Assembly: GCA_000026125.1 (NCBI GenBank)
Contig: CU207211.1
Location: 1,426,001 to 1,490,000 of the forward strand
Length of the DNA: 64,000 nucleotides
Origin: Herminiimonas arsenicoxydans
GTDB lineage: Bacteria > Pseudomonadota > Gammaproteobacteria > Burkholderiales > Burkholderiaceae_D
Direction: 5' to 3'
The notes under the pieces are model-generated. The model was given only the letters and a program-made list of their open reading frames with translations. It ran no database searches and was not told the origin of the DNA. This document shows positions 37,562 through 44,365 of this stretch, piece after piece (positions within the stretch are counted from its first letter, which is position 1; every line of letters starts with the position of its first letter). The translations under genes were made by a program, and so were the position numbers.

Positions 37562-37906
37562 TCAGTGGCTGATCATCCATGGTCGTTTGCCGACGAAGGT
37601 TTTCGTTCCGTTGGGTGCAACGAGTGTGGATTTGCTCTTCTTGCCGGACGAGCAGCAACTGCATCCTGACGGATGGGCTTTCGATGTGTAATTTTTGGAA
37701 CTCATCGGTTCATGCGATGCTTTTTCATTGGTACTCATCGCATGTCGCTTTTCATCCGTCAATACAGCCAGACGTGGCGCCGCAAGCCAGATACGCTGCG
37801 CTGCCGAGGCGCAATGCGGGCAATCAATCGGATCGTCGCGCGATGACATGCTGCGCAAGGCTTCGAAAGGACCGCATTCTTTGCAGACGTAATCGTATGT
37901 AGGCAT
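37562..37906 (-). CDS. fmdB: FmdB-family zinc ribbon protein
   Basis: A 114-residue protein starting MPTYDYVCKECGPFEALRSM, with a second CPHC pair at about residue 34; the CxxC...CxxC zinc ribbon is typical of FmdB. A Ser/Lys-rich tail has CSCCSSGKKSKS. FmdB was described with formamidase in Methylophilus as a putative regulatory protein; its precise action is unsettled. It lies 12 bases after fmdA. Confidence 0.9.
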   Translation of the reverse strand: MPTYDYVCKECGPFEALRSMSSRDDPIDCPHCASAAQRIWLAAPRLAVLTDEKRHAMSTNEKASHEPMSSKNYTSKAHPSGCSCCSSGKKSKSTLVAPNGTKTFVGKRPWMISH

Positions 37907-37918
37907 GACAGCCCCCCT

Positions 37919-39151
37919 CTATTTGAGATCGTGCGACAAAGGTATGCCCATGCTTTTGAATTTCTGCACTGCAGGGCCGGCAGCATTGGGATTGATGTCG
38001 AAGTCGAAGATCTGCGTCGGCAGCCACAAAGTCGCGCACGAGTTGGGGATATCCACCACGCCGCTGATATGACCTTGTACCGGAGCAGTGCCAAGGATGG
38101 AATAGGCCTGCGCACGGCTGTAGCCGAACTTGGTCATGTATTCGATCGCATTCAGGCAGGCTTGACGATAAGCCACGTTCACATCGAGATAATATTGCTT
38201 GCCCTGTTCATCGACGGAGATACCTTCAAAGATCAGGTAGTCGTTGTAGTGCGGTGTGATCGGACTAGGCTTGAAAATCGGATTCTTGATGCCGTAGGTA
38301 GCCATGCCGCCTTTGAGTACGGAAACCTTCATATGCACCCAGCCTGCCATTTCAATTGCGCCGCAGAAGGTGATTTCGCCATCGCCCTGGCTGAAGTGCA
38401 AATCGCCGACCGACAAACCTGCACCTTTGACGTAGACCGGGAAGAAGATTTTCGAGCCGCGCGACAAATCCTTGATATCGCAGTTGCCGCCGTGTTCGCG
38501 TGGCGGCACGGTGCGGGCGCCTTCAGCCGCTGCCTTGTCGCGGGCTGCACCTTTCATTTTTCCCATATGTGCGGTTGGTGCGAATGGTGCATTGGCCAGC
38601 GGCGGTACGCGATCAGGTTCGGTGGCGATCAGGCCGGTTTCGCGTTTATTCCACTCAGCCAGCAATTTGGGGTCTGGCAGGCAGCCGATCAGGCCGGGAT
38701 GGATCAAGCCTGCGTAGCGCACGCCAGGTACATGACGTGAAGATGTGAACAGGCCGTTGATGTCCCAGATCGATTTTTGTGCTTCAGGGAAGTGTTCGGT
38801 CAGGAAGCCGCCGCCGTTCTTCTTCGAGAAGAATCCGTTGAAGCCCCACATCGATTCGTCCTTGGCGCCGATATCGAGCAGCTCGACTACCAGCAAATCA
38901 CCAGGCTCTGCGCCATGTACACCGACCGGACCGGTCAGAAAGTGAACGATGGAAAGATCAATGTCGCGCACGTCGTCGGCGCTGTCGTTGTTCTTGATGA
39001 AACCGCCGGTCCAGTCATAGGTTTCGAGGATGAAGTCTTCGCCGGGATTGACCCAGGTTGCCATCGGGATATCGGAATGCCAGCGGTTGTGTATGTTTTC
39101 ATTGTCGTACGGGGATTGGTTCAGATCTACTTTGATCAGAGTTTCAGCCAT
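37919..39151 (-). CDS. fmdA: Formamidase
   Basis: A 410-residue cytoplasmic amidohydrolase of the acetamidase/formamidase family that splits formamide into formate and ammonia. Features include IHNRWHSDIPMATWVNPGEDFILETYDWTGG near the N-terminus, GPVGVHGAEPGDLLVVELLDIG, FTSSRHVPGVRYAGLIHPGLIGCLP, PPREHGGNCDIKDLSRGS and GDLHFSQGDGEITFCGAIEM. Length and order match FmdA of Methylophilus. It is the first gene of fmdA-fmdB-amiS and is divergent from an NCS1 permease and two-component genes, probable regulators. Formate released here could be oxidised by the FDH at 7-12 kb. Confidence 0.95.
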   Translation of the reverse strand: MAETLIKVDLNQSPYDNENIHNRWHSDIPMATWVNPGEDFILETYDWTGGFIKNNDSADDVRDIDLSIVHFLTGPVGVHGAEPGDLLVVELLDIGAKDESMWGFNGFFSKKNGGGFLTEHFPEAQKSIWDINGLFTSSRHVPGVRYAGLIHPGLIGCLPDPKLLAEWNKRETGLIATEPDRVPPLANAPFAPTAHMGKMKGAARDKAAAEGARTVPPREHGGNCDIKDLSRGSKIFFPVYVKGAGLSVGDLHFSQGDGEITFCGAIEMAGWVHMKVSVLKGGMATYGIKNPIFKPSPITPHYNDYLIFEGISVDEQGKQYYLDVNVAYRQACLNAIEYMTKFGYSRAQAYSILGTAPVQGHISGVVDIPNSCATLWLPTQIFDFDINPNAAGPAVQKFKSMGIPLSHDLK

Positions 39152-39511
39152 GATATCTACCTCTCGAAGTTGTGTTTATATGGATGGAACTCGGAGTTCC
39201 CCGACACTGGTGAGCGCTGCAATTGCAGGCATGGAGACTGCGACACCGAGCATTCCAGACACGATAATGTATGTACAACGTTCAACGTCAAATACGTCAA
39301 TTGGCGTACATCCAAAGCTCCCATACTTCTTCTTTCCTATGGGAAACTCGCCTTGTTAAATATTTTCAACTCATGTAATTTAAACAAGCACAAATCGTTT
39401 GCATGCTTGCCCACATGGATTCCAGCAAAACGAATGATTGCCATGTACCTTGAAAAGTAGATTCCATTGTCACGACACAAATAGACTCCATTCACATTCC
39501 ATGTGCATCTA
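39152..39511. other. Divergent control region between fmdA and the NCS1 permease
   Basis: About 360 bases without a gene. It contains the candidate fmdA promoter (39264-39291), ACGTCAA repeated at 39285 and 39294, and a near-perfect inverted repeat CTTGTTAAAT (39352-39361) with ATTTAAACAAG (39378-39388) in an AT-rich stretch. These are plausible sites for the LuxR-type regulator encoded at 42782-43729; nothing proves it. Confidence 0.4.
39264..39291 (-). promoter_or_regulatory. Possible sigma-70 promoter of fmdA
   Basis: On the - strand TTGACG (39291-39286) is followed after 16 bases by CATTAT (39269-39264), a 4/6 match to TATAAT. It would give a leader of about 105 bases. ACGTCAA occurs twice around the -35, perhaps as an activator site. 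Confidence 0.35.
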
Positions 39512-41011
39512 ATGGCTCAGCAAAAAATCTTCCGCATCCGACGTGATTACAACCGATGGGTCGCCAATGAGTCGCTGGAAGATTATGCGTTGCGCTATAC
39601 GCCGCGCGGTTTTCGTAAATGGTCGGAATGGCGTTTGGGTAATGCTGCTTTTGGTGCCGCCTCGTTTCTGGCGCTGGAAGCAATCGGCGGGGCGATTGCG
39701 CTGAACTATGGTTTTGCCAATGCGGTCTGGGCCATCCTGACGGTGGCCGTGATTACCTTCCTGACCGGTTTGCCGATTAGTTACTATGCAGCACGTTACG
39801 GCATCGATATGGATTTGCTGACGCGCGGTGCCGGTTTCGGCTATATGGGGTCGACGATCAGTTCGCTGATCTATGCCAGCTTTACGATCATTTTCTTTGC
39901 ACTTGAAGCAGCGATTCTTGCAGTAGCCTTGCAGATGTGGATAGCGTGGCCGCTGTGGATTTGGTATGTGATCTGCCCGCTATTCATCGTGCCTTTGGTC
40001 GCGCGCGGCATTACTCTGATTTCTCGCTTGCAACTCTGGACACAGCCGCTCTGGCTGCTATTGTTGATTACCCCTTATGTCGCCATTTTCTGGAAAAAGC
40101 CGGAAGCGTATACCGAGTTCACGCAATTCGTTGGTGCAATATCCAAAAGCAGCAACTTCGATCCCGTCATGTTCGGTGTGGCAGCGACAGTAGCCTTTTC
40201 GCTGGTGGCGCAGATCGGCGAGCAGGTCGATTTCTTGCGTTTCCTGCCTGAAAAAACGGCCGTCAACCGCCGTCGCTGGTGGACTGCAGTTATTGTGGCC
40301 GGAGCCGGCTGGATAGTGCCGGGCGGGCTCAAGATGCTGGGTGGCGCTTTCCTGGCGTATCTGGTTTTTCAGACAGGTGTGCCTGCCGCCCATGCGATGG
40401 AGCCGACGCGGATGTATCTGCTCGGTTTCTCGCATCTCTTCAGCGATCCGGCCTGGGTGCTCGCTATCACCCTGTTATTTGTCGTCGTCTCTCAGGTAAA
40501 AATCAATCTGACCAATGCGTATGCGGGATCGCTGGCATGGTCGAATTTTTTTGCGCGCTTGACGCACAGTCATCCGGGCCGCGTGGTCTGGCTGGTTTTC
40601 AATTGCCTGCTGGCTTTGCTGCTGATGAATCTGGGGGTGTTTGCCGCACTGGAAAACGTGCTGGGTCTGTACAGCAATGTTGCCGTTGCATGGGTAGGTA
40701 CATTGGTGGCCGATCTCGTCATCAACAAGCCGCTGGGACTGAGTCCGAAAGGAATCGAATTCAAACGTGCGCATCTGTACGACATCAATCCGGTTGGACT
40801 GGGGACGATGTTGCTGGCCGCAGGCGTGGGAATTACAGCCTTTTCTGGCGTAATGGGGCCTGAAGTGGCGGCCTTCTCGCCATTTATTACCCTGGGTATG
40901 ACGTTTGTCATATCGCCCTTGCTGGCGTTTGCGAAAACAGCTTTGAATCCGAGGATATGGCGCATTGCCCGGCGTATGGTGCGCCTATTTGTTCGTTGTG
41001 TTGCACGCTAG
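39512..41011 (+). CDS. NCS1-type permease, probably the detached N-terminal part of a permease-kinase
   Basis: A 499-residue protein with about twelve hydrophobic segments of the cytosine/purine/allantoin permease (NCS1) family. It has NESLEDYALRYTPRGFRKWSEWR, NYGFANAVWAILTVAVITFLTGLPISYYAARYG, and KINLTNAYAGSLAWSNFFARLTHSHPGR (core VKINLTNAYAGSLAW). After SPLLAFA the frame ends in 22 atypical basic residues (LNPRIWRIARRM then VRLFVRCVAR) and a stop. The next frame at the same place encodes a Cys-rich domain and the kinase. In related Burkholderiales, as I recall, permease and kinase are one protein. The start is the ATG; a GTG three codons earlier is possible. Confidence 0.85.
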   Translation: MAQQKIFRIRRDYNRWVANESLEDYALRYTPRGFRKWSEWRLGNAAFGAASFLALEAIGGAIALNYGFANAVWAILTVAVITFLTGLPISYYAARYGIDMDLLTRGAGFGYMGSTISSLIYASFTIIFFALEAAILAVALQMWIAWPLWIWYVICPLFIVPLVARGITLISRLQLWTQPLWLLLLITPYVAIFWKKPEAYTEFTQFVGAISKSSNFDPVMFGVAATVAFSLVAQIGEQVDFLRFLPEKTAVNRRRWWTAVIVAGAGWIVPGGLKMLGGAFLAYLVFQTGVPAAHAMEPTRMYLLGFSHLFSDPAWVLAITLLFVVVSQVKINLTNAYAGSLAWSNFFARLTHSHPGRVVWLVFNCLLALLLMNLGVFAALENVLGLYSNVAVAWVGTLVADLVINKPLGLSPKGIEFKRAHLYDINPVGLGTMLLAAGVGITAFSGVMGPEVAAFSPFITLGMTFVISPLLAFAKTALNPRIWRIARRMVRLFVRCVAR

Positions 41012-41034
41012 AATCGCGCTGCCATGATCTGTGC
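40930..41034 (+). other. Cys-rich linker segment coded across the permease-kinase junction
   Basis: In the kinase frame, and before its first ATG, the sequence reads CENSFESEDMAHC and then CSLCCTLESRCHDLC. Seven Cys codons lie at 40930, 40966, 40990, 40999, 41002, 41020 and 41032. The first part overlaps the final codons of the permease in another frame. This looks like a metal-binding linker that once joined the two domains. Confidence 0.7.
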
Positions 41035-42807
41035 AAGAAAGAATCCAGAACTGCGGAACAGGCGCAGCAATTGTTGTCGGCATTGTTGCCGAATGCCTTT
41101 TCGCATTTGATCAGTCGGCGTGTAGGCAACTACATGGTGGTAGTGCTGTCACTGTGCGCGGTAGGTGCGGCAGCACTTGGTCTTGTGTACGTACAGGAAA
41201 TCTCTGCCATCGCTTCAGTGGAAAGCCGCATCCTGATTGATGGCATTTTCATCAAGATAGCGGCGGTACTGTCGATTATCGTTGCCGTATCAAGCTGGTG
41301 GGTCGTACTGGGCAGCGAAGGCCGGCATCTGGCGCAAGACGATTTGAATCGGCAAAACGAATTGCTGACGCAAGAAATTGAGGCGCATCAGCGTACCGAT
41401 GTTGCATTGCAAAGCGCGAAGGAAGCGGCAGAATTCGCGAATCAGGCAAAGACACGCTATGTGGCCGGTATCTCGCACGAACTGCGTTCGCCGCTCAACA
41501 GCATCCTGGGATATTCGCAAATTCTGCTCAAGAATGAGCACCTTGCTGCTGCACCGCGCACGGCCATACAAACCATACATCGCAGCGGTGAACATCTATT
41601 GGGTTTGGTGGATGAACTGCTGGATTTGGCGCGTATCGAAGCGGATCGCATGCGCCTGGAACCGGCGCCGATTTTGCTGAGTGCATTTCTGGAAGATTTG
41701 CTGAGCATGGTGCGTCCGCAGGCAGAAGCGAAAGGTCTCAAGCTGCTGTGCACGTACAACGGGAAAATATCGCGTTACGTATTGGCGGATGGAAAACGCT
41801 TGCGTCAGATATTCATCAACTTGCTGACCAACGCGGTGCGTTTTACAGATGATGGTTCGGTTACTTTGCATGTGGAGTGCAGCCCGGCATCGGTACGCTT
41901 CGATGTGGTCGATACCGGCATCGGCATCGCAGTGCAGGACAGACAGCGCATATTCCAGCCGTTCGAACGCGGCGCGGCAGGGCGCTTGCGCGGCGAGCCT
42001 GGCGCAGGTTTGGGTTTGGCCATTACCGAGAAGTTGATCCTGCTGATGAATGGCAGCTTGAATCTGGTGAGTATGCAGGGGCAGGGCAGTACCTTCATTG
42101 TACGTTTGCCGCTGACGGAAATCACTGCATTCGAGTCCTTGCCGCAACGCGATGTGATCGGTCATGCCGGTCCTGCACGCACTTTGCTGGTAGTGGACGA
42201 TCAGCCTGTGCAAAGGCATATGCTGACCGGCATGTTGATTCCTCTGGGCTTCAATGTCCGCGAGGCGGCCAGCGGGAATGAGTGTCTGGATTTGCTGCAG
42301 GATTTTGCTCCCGATGCGATTCTTCTCGATATCGGCATGGACGGCATGGACGGCTGGGAAACCGCCAGACAAGTGCGCGCCGCAGGTCATGCTGCCGTGC
42401 CGATTATCTTTATTTCAGCCGATTTATTTGAAAACGATCCGGAAAAATTACGTTTGGCAGGATGTCAGGCTTTTGTCGGCAAGCCAGTACTGGAATCGGA
42501 ACTTATGCTCGCATTACAGGGTCAACTTGGGCTGAAATGGGTATATACCGGCCTTGCCGAGCAGCGCCCGTCGGCAGGAATATTGCCTGAGCAATTGGCA
42601 TTTCCACAGCCCGTGATTACCCAATTGCTGCAATTGACGCGCATGGGACATGTGACAGGTTTGCGCTGCGCGCTTGATCGTTTGGCGGCGGCAGATCCTT
42701 CTCTCCATACTTCTTGCGCAGTAGCAAGAGCATTGCTCGATCGCTTCGAGCTAGGCGCATTGGAGAACGCATTGATGGAGAATGAACGTGCCGCATCTCT
42801 TGATTGA
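40957..42807 (+). CDS. Hybrid histidine kinase with receiver domain, probably detached from the NCS1 permease
   Basis: A 616-residue reading frame from the first ATG. It starts inside a Cys-rich motif, followed by two membrane helices (YMVVVLSLCAVGAAALGLVYV and IFIKIAAVLSIIVAVSSWWVV) and a coiled coil. The HisKA domain has the H-box GISHELRSPLNSILGYSQ with His174, then the ATPase boxes NLLTNAVRF, DTGIGIAV and GAGLGLAITEKL. A C-terminal receiver has D414 and phosphoacceptor D458 (LLDIGMDGMDGWE). The stop overlaps the next regulator by 26 bases. The true start is uncertain, as the frame is open from 40864 and lacks a clear ribosome site. Confidence 0.83.
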   Translation: MAHCPAYGAPICSLCCTLESRCHDLCKKESRTAEQAQQLLSALLPNAFSHLISRRVGNYMVVVLSLCAVGAAALGLVYVQEISAIASVESRILIDGIFIKIAAVLSIIVAVSSWWVVLGSEGRHLAQDDLNRQNELLTQEIEAHQRTDVALQSAKEAAEFANQAKTRYVAGISHELRSPLNSILGYSQILLKNEHLAAAPRTAIQTIHRSGEHLLGLVDELLDLARIEADRMRLEPAPILLSAFLEDLLSMVRPQAEAKGLKLLCTYNGKISRYVLADGKRLRQIFINLLTNAVRFTDDGSVTLHVECSPASVRFDVVDTGIGIAVQDRQRIFQPFERGAAGRLRGEPGAGLGLAITEKLILLMNGSLNLVSMQGQGSTFIVRLPLTEITAFESLPQRDVIGHAGPARTLLVVDDQPVQRHMLTGMLIPLGFNVREAASGNECLDLLQDFAPDAILLDIGMDGMDGWETARQVRAAGHAAVPIIFISADLFENDPEKLRLAGCQAFVGKPVLESELMLALQGQLGLKWVYTGLAEQRPSAGILPEQLAFPQPVITQLLQLTRMGHVTGLRCALDRLAAADPSLHTSCAVARALLDRFELGALENALMENERAASLD

Positions 42808-43729
42808 TAATCCCGATAGCCGTCCTGTCGTGCTGGTTGTCGATGACGCACCCAGCAGTCTGGGCGTACTGTGCGAAACGCTGGAGAGCTCCGGCTATAT
42901 CGTGCTGGTCGCTTGCGATGGCGATACTGCCTTGCGTTGCCTGACCCTGACCACGCCGGACATCATTCTGATGGATGCGGTGATGCCGGGCATGTCAGGC
43001 TTCGACGCCTGCCGTCACATCAAGTCTGATCTTGCGACCAAACATATTCCCCTTATTTTCATGACGGGCTTGTCCGATACTTCACATGTGCTGGAAGGCT
43101 TTGCCTGTGGTGGCGTGGATTATGTGGTGAAGCCGGTGTGTGCGCCGGAAGTGCTGGCGCGTTTGCACACGCATTTGGGTAATGCACGTGTTGCCCGGTT
43201 TGCATTGGATGCGATTGATATGTCCGGTCTGGGTGTTGTCATGCTGAACCAGCAGGGTGCGATTTCATGGTGTTCACCATGCGCAAGGCAATTACTGATG
43301 CAATTCGGCATCAAGCAGGATGCGCTCGCCTTGCCGCAATCCTGGTGGGATGACGGCAGCAATATGGTACTGGTTGCTTCCATTGCTGAACCGGCCGGTG
43401 ACAGTCTGCTGGTACGCAATATGGGTTCGGCCGGGATGGATGAAATCATGTTGCTGCTTGAATTGAGCAGCAATCGCATGTTGCCGACAGGACGTCTTGC
43501 CAGCGCCGCGTTGACGCCGCGTGAAACGGAAGTGCTTTCCTGGCTGGCCAAGGGTAAAACCAATCGCGATATCGGCGATATCCTGCAATTAAGTCCGCGC
43601 ACGGTAAGCAAGCATCTGGAACACATCTTCGAGAAACTGGGAGTCGAGACACGCTCGGCAGCGGTTGCCATGGCGAGCGCTCAGGATAACGCAGGCGCTC
43701 GTCTGACGTCAGGCAAATGGCTGCCTTGA
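42782..43729 (+). CDS. LuxR/NarL-type response regulator
   Basis: A 315-residue transcription factor. The receiver domain has D21/D22, phosphoacceptor D65 (ILMDAVMPG), T95 and K117 (VVKPV). A linker of about 120 residues follows, with a degenerate PAS-like stretch (GLGVVMLNQQGAISWCSP). The C-terminal HTH is LTPRETEVLSWLAKGKTNRDIGDILQLSPRTVSKHLEHIFEKLGV (its core is TNRDIGDILQLSPRTVSKHL). It overlaps the hybrid kinase gene by 26 bases and is its likely partner. Divergent fmdA-fmdB-amiS are the most obvious targets, by position only. Confidence 0.92.
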   Translation: MNVPHLLIDNPDSRPVVLVVDDAPSSLGVLCETLESSGYIVLVACDGDTALRCLTLTTPDIILMDAVMPGMSGFDACRHIKSDLATKHIPLIFMTGLSDTSHVLEGFACGGVDYVVKPVCAPEVLARLHTHLGNARVARFALDAIDMSGLGVVMLNQQGAISWCSPCARQLLMQFGIKQDALALPQSWWDDGSNMVLVASIAEPAGDSLLVRNMGSAGMDEIMLLLELSSNRMLPTGRLASAALTPRETEVLSWLAKGKTNRDIGDILQLSPRTVSKHLEHIFEKLGVETRSAAVAMASAQDNAGARLTSGKWLP

Positions 43730-43808: not shown

Positions 43809-43949
43809 TTAACCAATCGCGATGGCAAGCGTCAGCAATGCCATGCCGATAACGATACACGCGCACAGCCATTTTTTCAGTCGTACGCCATTTTCGACCA
43901 GTTGCACGGCTGCTGCGCGTTTGGCTGCGGACAAATCATCTTTTTTCAT
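43809..43949 (-). CDS. 46-residue single-pass membrane peptide coupled to the Rnk-like gene
   Basis: A short reading frame, MKKDDLSAAKRAAAVQLVEN and then GVRLKKWLCACIVIGMALLT and LAIAIG. A basic amphipathic helix precedes one strong transmembrane segment at the C-terminus. Its ATG overlaps the stop of the Rnk-like gene as ATGA, a usual sign of coupled translation, and a terminator follows the stop at once. No family is known to me. It may be a small tail-anchored protein. Confidence 0.6.
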   Translation of the reverse strand: MKKDDLSAAKRAAAVQLVENGVRLKKWLCACIVIGMALLTLAIAIG

Positions 43950-44365
43950 GAGTGTGTGAGTTCTCCTACTGCCGAGTCCAGTGGCGTGACATCAAGAATC
44001 TTGATTTTTTCGATGCGATTCGACGGCAATTCAACTTCTATCGTGCTCGACACTTTTCTTCCTATTAGCGCCAGGCCGATGGGCGTCAAGGTGGAAATCA
44101 GCGCGAGTTGCGGATTGGCGTCCTGCGGACAGACGATGGTGATGCTGCGTTTTTCATCGCTGTTGTATGGCGAATACGAAACGGTCGAGTAGAGCGAGAC
44201 GCAATCCTTGCGCGGTGCATTGATCGGCAGGATCACCGAAGTGGAAATGATATCAATCAATTCTTCGCCGGCATTGATTTCGACTTCGCCCAGGCGCAAC
44301 AGATGTTCGGCCAGCTTGCTCAGAATGGAGGCATCATTTTGGGTCAGGTAACGTTGATTTTTCAT
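43946..44365 (-). CDS. Rnk-like GreA/GreB-family factor
   Basis: A 139-residue protein resembling the nucleoside diphosphate kinase regulator Rnk. The N-terminal part (YLTQNDASILSKLAEHLLRL) is a short helical pair where Gre factors have their coiled coil. The C-terminal FKBP-like GreA/B domain contains CVSLYSTVSYSPYNSDEKRSITIVCPQDAN and STLTPIGLALIGRKVSSTIEVELP (core TPIGLALIGRKV). Rnk binds RNA polymerase but lacks cleavage-factor activity. The gene has a long structured upstream region and overlaps a 46-residue membrane peptide gene by 4 bases. Confidence 0.82.
   Translation of the reverse strand: MKNQRYLTQNDASILSKLAEHLLRLGEVEINAGEELIDIISTSVILPINAPRKDCVSLYSTVSYSPYNSDEKRSITIVCPQDANPQLALISTLTPIGLALIGRKVSSTIEVELPSNRIEKIKILDVTPLDSAVGELTHS

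Follow-up and report, generated by a model that had tools for sequence, protein, structure and literature searches.

CbrA, a histidine kinase joined to an SLC5 transporter, is reported to keep the activities of its parts when they are separated: transport by the SLC5 part does not need the kinase, and a kinase deprived of SLC5 still phosphorylates and turns on expression of its target (PMC7096432). How a signal passes from the transporter to the fused kinase in CbrA is described as still an open question (PMC13022988). In the ammonium sensor kinase Ks-Amt5, the isolated kinase is reported to autophosphorylate and to be unregulated (PMC5764959). Here we describe a locus of Herminiimonas arsenicoxydans, within a stretch of 64,000 nucleotides of contig CU207211.1 (bases 1426001-1490000; the window), in which a transporter-sensor kinase gene has probably been cut in two by the loss of 79 bases; the two halves may work, and ligand control has most likely been lost.

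Organization of the split gene

The two halves lie in overlapping frames, with the following features:

39512..41011, plus strand: NCS1-like permease half, 499 aa (frame 39503/39512-41011)
40864..41008, plus strand: overlap of 145 bases in which the permease and kinase frames are both open
40924..40928, plus strand: GGCGT, the one copy left of a short direct repeat and junction of the deletion, from alignment with relatives
40930..41034, plus strand: what is left, in the kinase frame, of the eight-cysteine linker (Cys2-Cys8, with Cys1 deleted)
40957..42807, plus strand: hybrid histidine kinase half, longest ORF of 616 aa from ATG 40957, with the rest of the Cys linker, two hydrophobic segments, HisKA, HATPase_c and receiver

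Residues 1-472 of the permease align with fused relatives, and residues 473-499 form a frameshifted basic tail, the sequence past the deletion junction being kinase-coding DNA read in another frame. The preliminary description of this DNA had remarked on an atypically basic end of the permease followed by a stop, and the tail past SPLLA indeed reads FAKTALNPRIWRIARRMVRLFVRCVAR, with eight basic and no acidic residues, and then TAG. As it had also proposed, the kinase frame 5' of its first ATG encodes a Cys segment that overlaps the permease end: the frame is open as far back as the stop codon at 40861, and its translation is ...AGVCENSFESEDMAHCPAYGAPICSLCCTLESRCHDLCKK. The seven cysteines that it counted are there in the window, but the motif of intact relatives has eight, the first of which is lost here. 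Cys2 lies 5' of the first ATG, GTG or TTG of the kinase frame.

The database protein for the kinase half (P0122) is 577 aa long and begins at TTG 41074. Predicted SD strengths (-1.8 at 40957, -3.5 at 41074, -1.4 at the permease start and -6.4 at the regulator) do not discriminate among the starts, as the start of the permease itself has a weaker score than those inside the kinase frame. Pfam matches to HisKA (E 5.6e-18), HATPase_c (3.8e-27) and a receiver (6.8e-21) identify a hybrid histidine kinase, and its two hydrophobic segments, judged by eye, are probably transmembrane.

The NCS1 identity given earlier to the permease stands by predicted fold and fails by Pfam profile. The model of the permease half has the NCS1/Mhp1 fold, with a strong match to CodB and Mhp1, and the listed SLC5-type chains (DUR3 21.3, CHT1 20.9) resemble it less than NCS1 does. 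PF02133, however, does not recognize it (no family at E up to 10), and the sole match to this profile in the genome is at another locus; when a profile built from the permease alignment was run against PDB sequences, one match resulted, at E 1.8. That the family (39512-41008 in the window) is invisible to Pfam at E 10 despite a CodB/Mhp1-like model points to a gap in the PF02133 profile. The linker is possibly RING-like, from a weak Prok-RING_1 match at residues 495-537 of the fused protein P0233 (7.9 bits against a cut-off of 29.1, E 3.9). Pfam scans gave no STAC match, the meaning of which depends on Pfam holding a STAC model. The model of the fused protein (pTM 0.54) is too loose for its domain arrangement to be read.

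Fusion in relatives

Each half was searched separately in the genome itself and in 59 relatives. In all 12 relatives that have both halves, these lie in a single open frame of 1126-1329 aa with no internal stops; in one of them (G003) the contig ends before the kinase does. Of the genomes searched that have both halves, the window's alone departs from this one-frame rule. The fusion of an NCS1 permease, a Cys-rich linker and a hybrid kinase, named in the preliminary description, is thus borne out, and close relatives with two separate genes, the case that it had set as refuting, were sought in the 59 relatives and none was found. An ancestral two-gene arrangement is rejected, since the 12 relatives with both halves are fused. 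Of the named relatives found, Herminiimonas sp. KBW02 and H. contaminans are the nearest, at 91% over the permease. No second copy is present in the genome itself at E 1e-60 for the kinase half or 1e-30 for the permease half.

Two wider, overlapping samples were judged by frame length (long enough for both halves), the kinase content being read for G345, G411, the both-half relatives and 20 phylum loci. Across the order the permease is found in 66 of 399 genomes (69 matches, own genome included); 65 of the 68 other matches lie in frames of at least 926 aa, two are at contig ends (G305, G347) and one (G287) is standalone. In G345 and G411 the permease is fused to a different kinase. Across the phylum all 61 matches other than our own lie in frames of at least 894 aa (62 matches in total), and the transporter-sensor family is widespread, being found in 57 of 397 sampled genomes, the window's own counted. 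On these comparisons fusion is the rule, and the window gene is one gene cut in two. The standalone permease of G287 (L093, contig C205) is distant, at 47% identity, and has a degenerate Cys motif; no kinase was seen 3' of it in the stretch read.

The deletion and its expected products

By match coordinates, the window lacks 79 bases relative to 10 of the 12 relatives, 76 relative to G016 and 127 relative to G038. The preliminary description had proposed that the start of the linker was deleted and the frame shifted, and alignment shows both: 79 bases are gone, a number not divisible by three, and the frame is shifted. A simple base-call error is rejected, since 79 bases are absent. With the deleted stretch went GRYYxAR, at the end of the last helix region of the permease, and the first cysteine of the linker. 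In the 119 fused proteins P0232-P0350, the best listed of 7999 scored, a loose GRYYxAR-like pattern is found in 113 and the eight-Cys motif in all. In G001 the missing stretch is flanked at both ends by GGCGT. A direct repeat at both ends of a deletion is the usual mark of slipped mispairing, and slipped mispairing between the repeats is the mechanism that we infer.

The proposed course of events is as follows. In relatives the product is one protein of about 1125 aa, consisting of an NCS1-fold permease, an eight-cysteine linker, two hydrophobic segments and a HisKA-HATPase-receiver kinase. Slippage between the two short direct repeats would have removed 79 bases, with them the GRYYxAR end and Cys1, and shifted the frame. 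Two products would be expected now: a permease whose core is complete and which ends in 27 new, basic residues, and a kinase anchored in the membrane and translated from an internal start (ATG 40957, TTG 41074 or ATG 41134). By analogy with CbrA and Ks-Amt5, the halves may each work and ligand control would be lost: each half may retain its own chemistry, as the isolated halves of CbrA do, and with ligand control of the kinase most likely lost, fmdA would be unregulated or expressed at a basal level.

Sequence change in the halves

Between the window and G001, dN and dS are 0.042 and 0.72 for the permease, 0.062 and 0.86 for the kinase, 0.057 and 0.58 for the regulator, and 0.021 and 0.59 for FmdA. 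Lineage-specific amino-acid changes (window/G001) number 12/17 in the permease and 31/8 in the kinase (p 0.0003), but the window lineage is faster than G001 nearly everywhere, with 19/6 in the regulator, 13/2 in FmdA and 67/16 in three further neighbours together. Against these five pooled neighbours (99/24) the kinase shows no difference (Fisher p 1.0), and the permease has relatively fewer changes (p 9e-5). The pool excludes MARC (129 codons) and DEDA (21 codons), whose alignments are short; MARC alone gives 20 against 4. By this measure against G001, no relaxation of the halves beyond the neighbouring genes is found. That neither half has changed more than the neighbours speaks against plain damage, and fits retained function as well as a recent break. 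GVCENSFESED, eleven codons 5' of any start in the kinase frame, differs from G001 at one residue, and the break therefore seems recent compared with the divergence from G001. The break would thus be young, or both halves would still be under selection; the sequence data fit either.

Separate and cut forms in databases

A search for the permease, limited by length to pieces, found 3010 proteins. Among the 120 listed, nine end just past a whole eight-Cys linker, of which two are called partial by the source (P0066 and P0067, dropped from the separate forms for this reason), five are on contigs of less than 8 kb and two are on long contigs. These last two, P0049 (contig of 694,925 bp) and P0071 (7,634,710 bp), are separate permease-plus-linker proteins that keep all eight cysteines. 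P0042 and P0047 are, like them, separate NCS1-like permeases ending right past an intact linker. Two pairs are cut within the linker much as in the window: P0006/P0163, on equal-sized contigs of 11,244 bp, and P0019/P0198 (15,202 bp, in 5 and 7 contigs). Such cuts may therefore be tolerated. The kinase pieces of both pairs start at the same conserved Met as ATG 40957, and so do 11 of the 111 kinase-half proteins first listed. In Thiomonas intermedia, P0070 and P0134, on contigs of 3,301,026 bases each, are apparently a fused sensor cut inside the permease domain. Both kinds of separation, after the whole linker and within it, thus occur in databases, with sequencing error or contig ends possible for most. 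These forms make plain damage in the window slightly less likely, and a two-piece form slightly more so.

Alternative readings

The permease and the kinase could both be made, interact in the membrane and signal in trans as a working two-piece transceptor, a possibility raised in the preliminary description. We consider this unlikely, although both frames are intact, have changed no more than neighbouring genes and leave the kinase half its own hydrophobic segments, and although separate permease-plus-linker proteins on long contigs, the two linker-cut pairs and the kinases starting at the conserved Met also speak for it. GRYYxAR and Cys1 are gone and Cys2 is in no frame from an ordinary start; therefore neither half has a whole linker, whereas P0049 and P0071 have one. 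The database pieces may hold errors. Five of the 12 congeners, moreover, have no match to the permease half at E 1e-30, and the system is therefore dispensable.

It is improbable that the break arose as an artefact of assembly or cloning, or that it is carried by no other stock than the laboratory one that was sequenced. Losing 79 bases at a direct repeat is not what a base-calling error does, and the genome is a single contig of 3,424,307 bases; the species is, however, represented by a single genome, its relatives with both halves are fused, and there is no decay around the break. Programmed frameshifting or slippage that restores the fused product is very improbable. It could make use of the overlap of the frames and of the still conserved kinase frame 5' of the ATG, but it is rejected because the overlap holds no X XXY YYZ heptamer in phase, in agreement with the earlier failure to see a clear slippery site. 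Nor did a script find the one partial form scanned. The longest homopolymer run at the junction is AAAA, relatives require no frameshift, and the product would still be short by about 26 codons. A natural cut by deletion, with ligand control most likely lost, is the reading that we prefer.

Gene neighbourhood and a candidate operator

The split gene is flanked by the following features:

37562..37906, minus strand: FmdB-type zinc-ribbon (RPWMISH) protein, 3' of fmdA, from domain matches
37919..39151, minus strand: formamidase FmdA, divergent neighbour (NF045496, 755.9 bits, cut-off 500)
39293..39308, no strand assigned: TACGTCAATTGGCGTA, an imperfect but conserved palindrome in the fmdA-permease interval, predicted to be a site for a response regulator
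42782..43729, plus strand: LuxR-type response regulator, intact, directly 3' of the kinase half, a conserved neighbour

FmdA is identified at the level of an NCBIfam equivalog. A protein with a GreA/GreB C-terminal domain lies 3' of the regulator (43946-44365 in the window). Among 10 named loci, seven (L075-L081) have a divergent FmdA beside the fused gene and a LuxR-type regulator after it; L083 has the regulator only, and L082 and L084 have neither. In L076 the regulator is masked by an antisense ORF, and tblastn finds it in the same genome (L088); in L080 the fused gene is masked likewise, its open frame being shown by the separate half searches (G009). Twenty of the 62 phylum matches were fetched with flanks (L114-L133). 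The regulator follows the fused sensor in all 20, and an FmdA homologue is within the fetched stretch in 15, 14 of them at 74-85% identity (two cut by the end of the stretch) and one at 60%. In three loci inspected by eye, the genes between FmdA and the sensor have the look of a branched-chain-amino-acid/urea-type ABC transporter. From this neighbourhood, the intact sensor and the LuxR-type regulator probably control amide genes, which here means fmdA and at other loci also includes an ABC transporter of the amide/urea type, and the fused protein would read an amide-type signal.

Of 13 genomes searched, 10 carry the palindrome pattern TACGTnAAnnnnCGTA 5' of the fused gene. Six of the 13 had helped define it; of the seven others it is present in four (G003, G012, G014 and G016) and absent in three (G033, G038 and G059). 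Within a genome, the reversed pattern turns up 0-4 times on each strand. The palindrome in the window alone is within chance expectation, and the site is found in only 3 of the 20 phylum loci. In the window's lineage the regulator may act at this site.

More tentatively, and with somewhat less than even confidence, the intact relatives could be an undescribed class of transporter-sensor kinase, in which an NCS1-fold receptor for an amide (e.g. formamide) acts through a RING-like cysteine linker on a kinase that, together with the LuxR-type regulator, governs formamidase and the uptake of amides, in this lineage via TACGTnAAnnnnCGTA; the window genome would then be a natural uncoupling mutant, with receptor and kinase separate. 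The window gene offers an experiment of nature on the way in which a transporter activates a kinase. The coupling is directly testable, because the natural cut is at the coupling point, the halves are otherwise unspoilt, and a candidate target gene and operator are nearby.

Comparison with known systems

Titles and abstract openings revealed no NCS1-kinase fusion in the literature covered, with most subscription journals outside its scope, and neither NCS1 nor Mhp1 came up when the preprint on the CbrA structure (PMC13022988) was searched for these terms. CodB and Mhp1, both NCS1, share the predicted fold of the permease half, but with 15-20% identity; the permease lacks a PF02133 match and is fused to a kinase in relatives. 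The short-chain amide operons (fmd) consist of FmdA, FmdB and an amide ABC transporter. The window locus likewise has FmdA and FmdB as neighbours but no ABC genes between fmdA and the sensor. In CbrA and CrbS, the SLC5-STAC histidine kinases, as in the fused relatives here, a small coupling domain links a transporter and a histidine kinase. Here, however, the model is nearest to NCS1 (CodB, Mhp1), the linker has eight cysteines and two hydrophobic segments come after it, and the gene is broken in two. Ks-Amt5 likewise has a transporter domain fused to a histidine kinase, the transporter part being the receptor, but it has another transporter fold and is described with the DHp and CA kinase parts only, unlike the Cys linker and receiver found here (PMC5764959).
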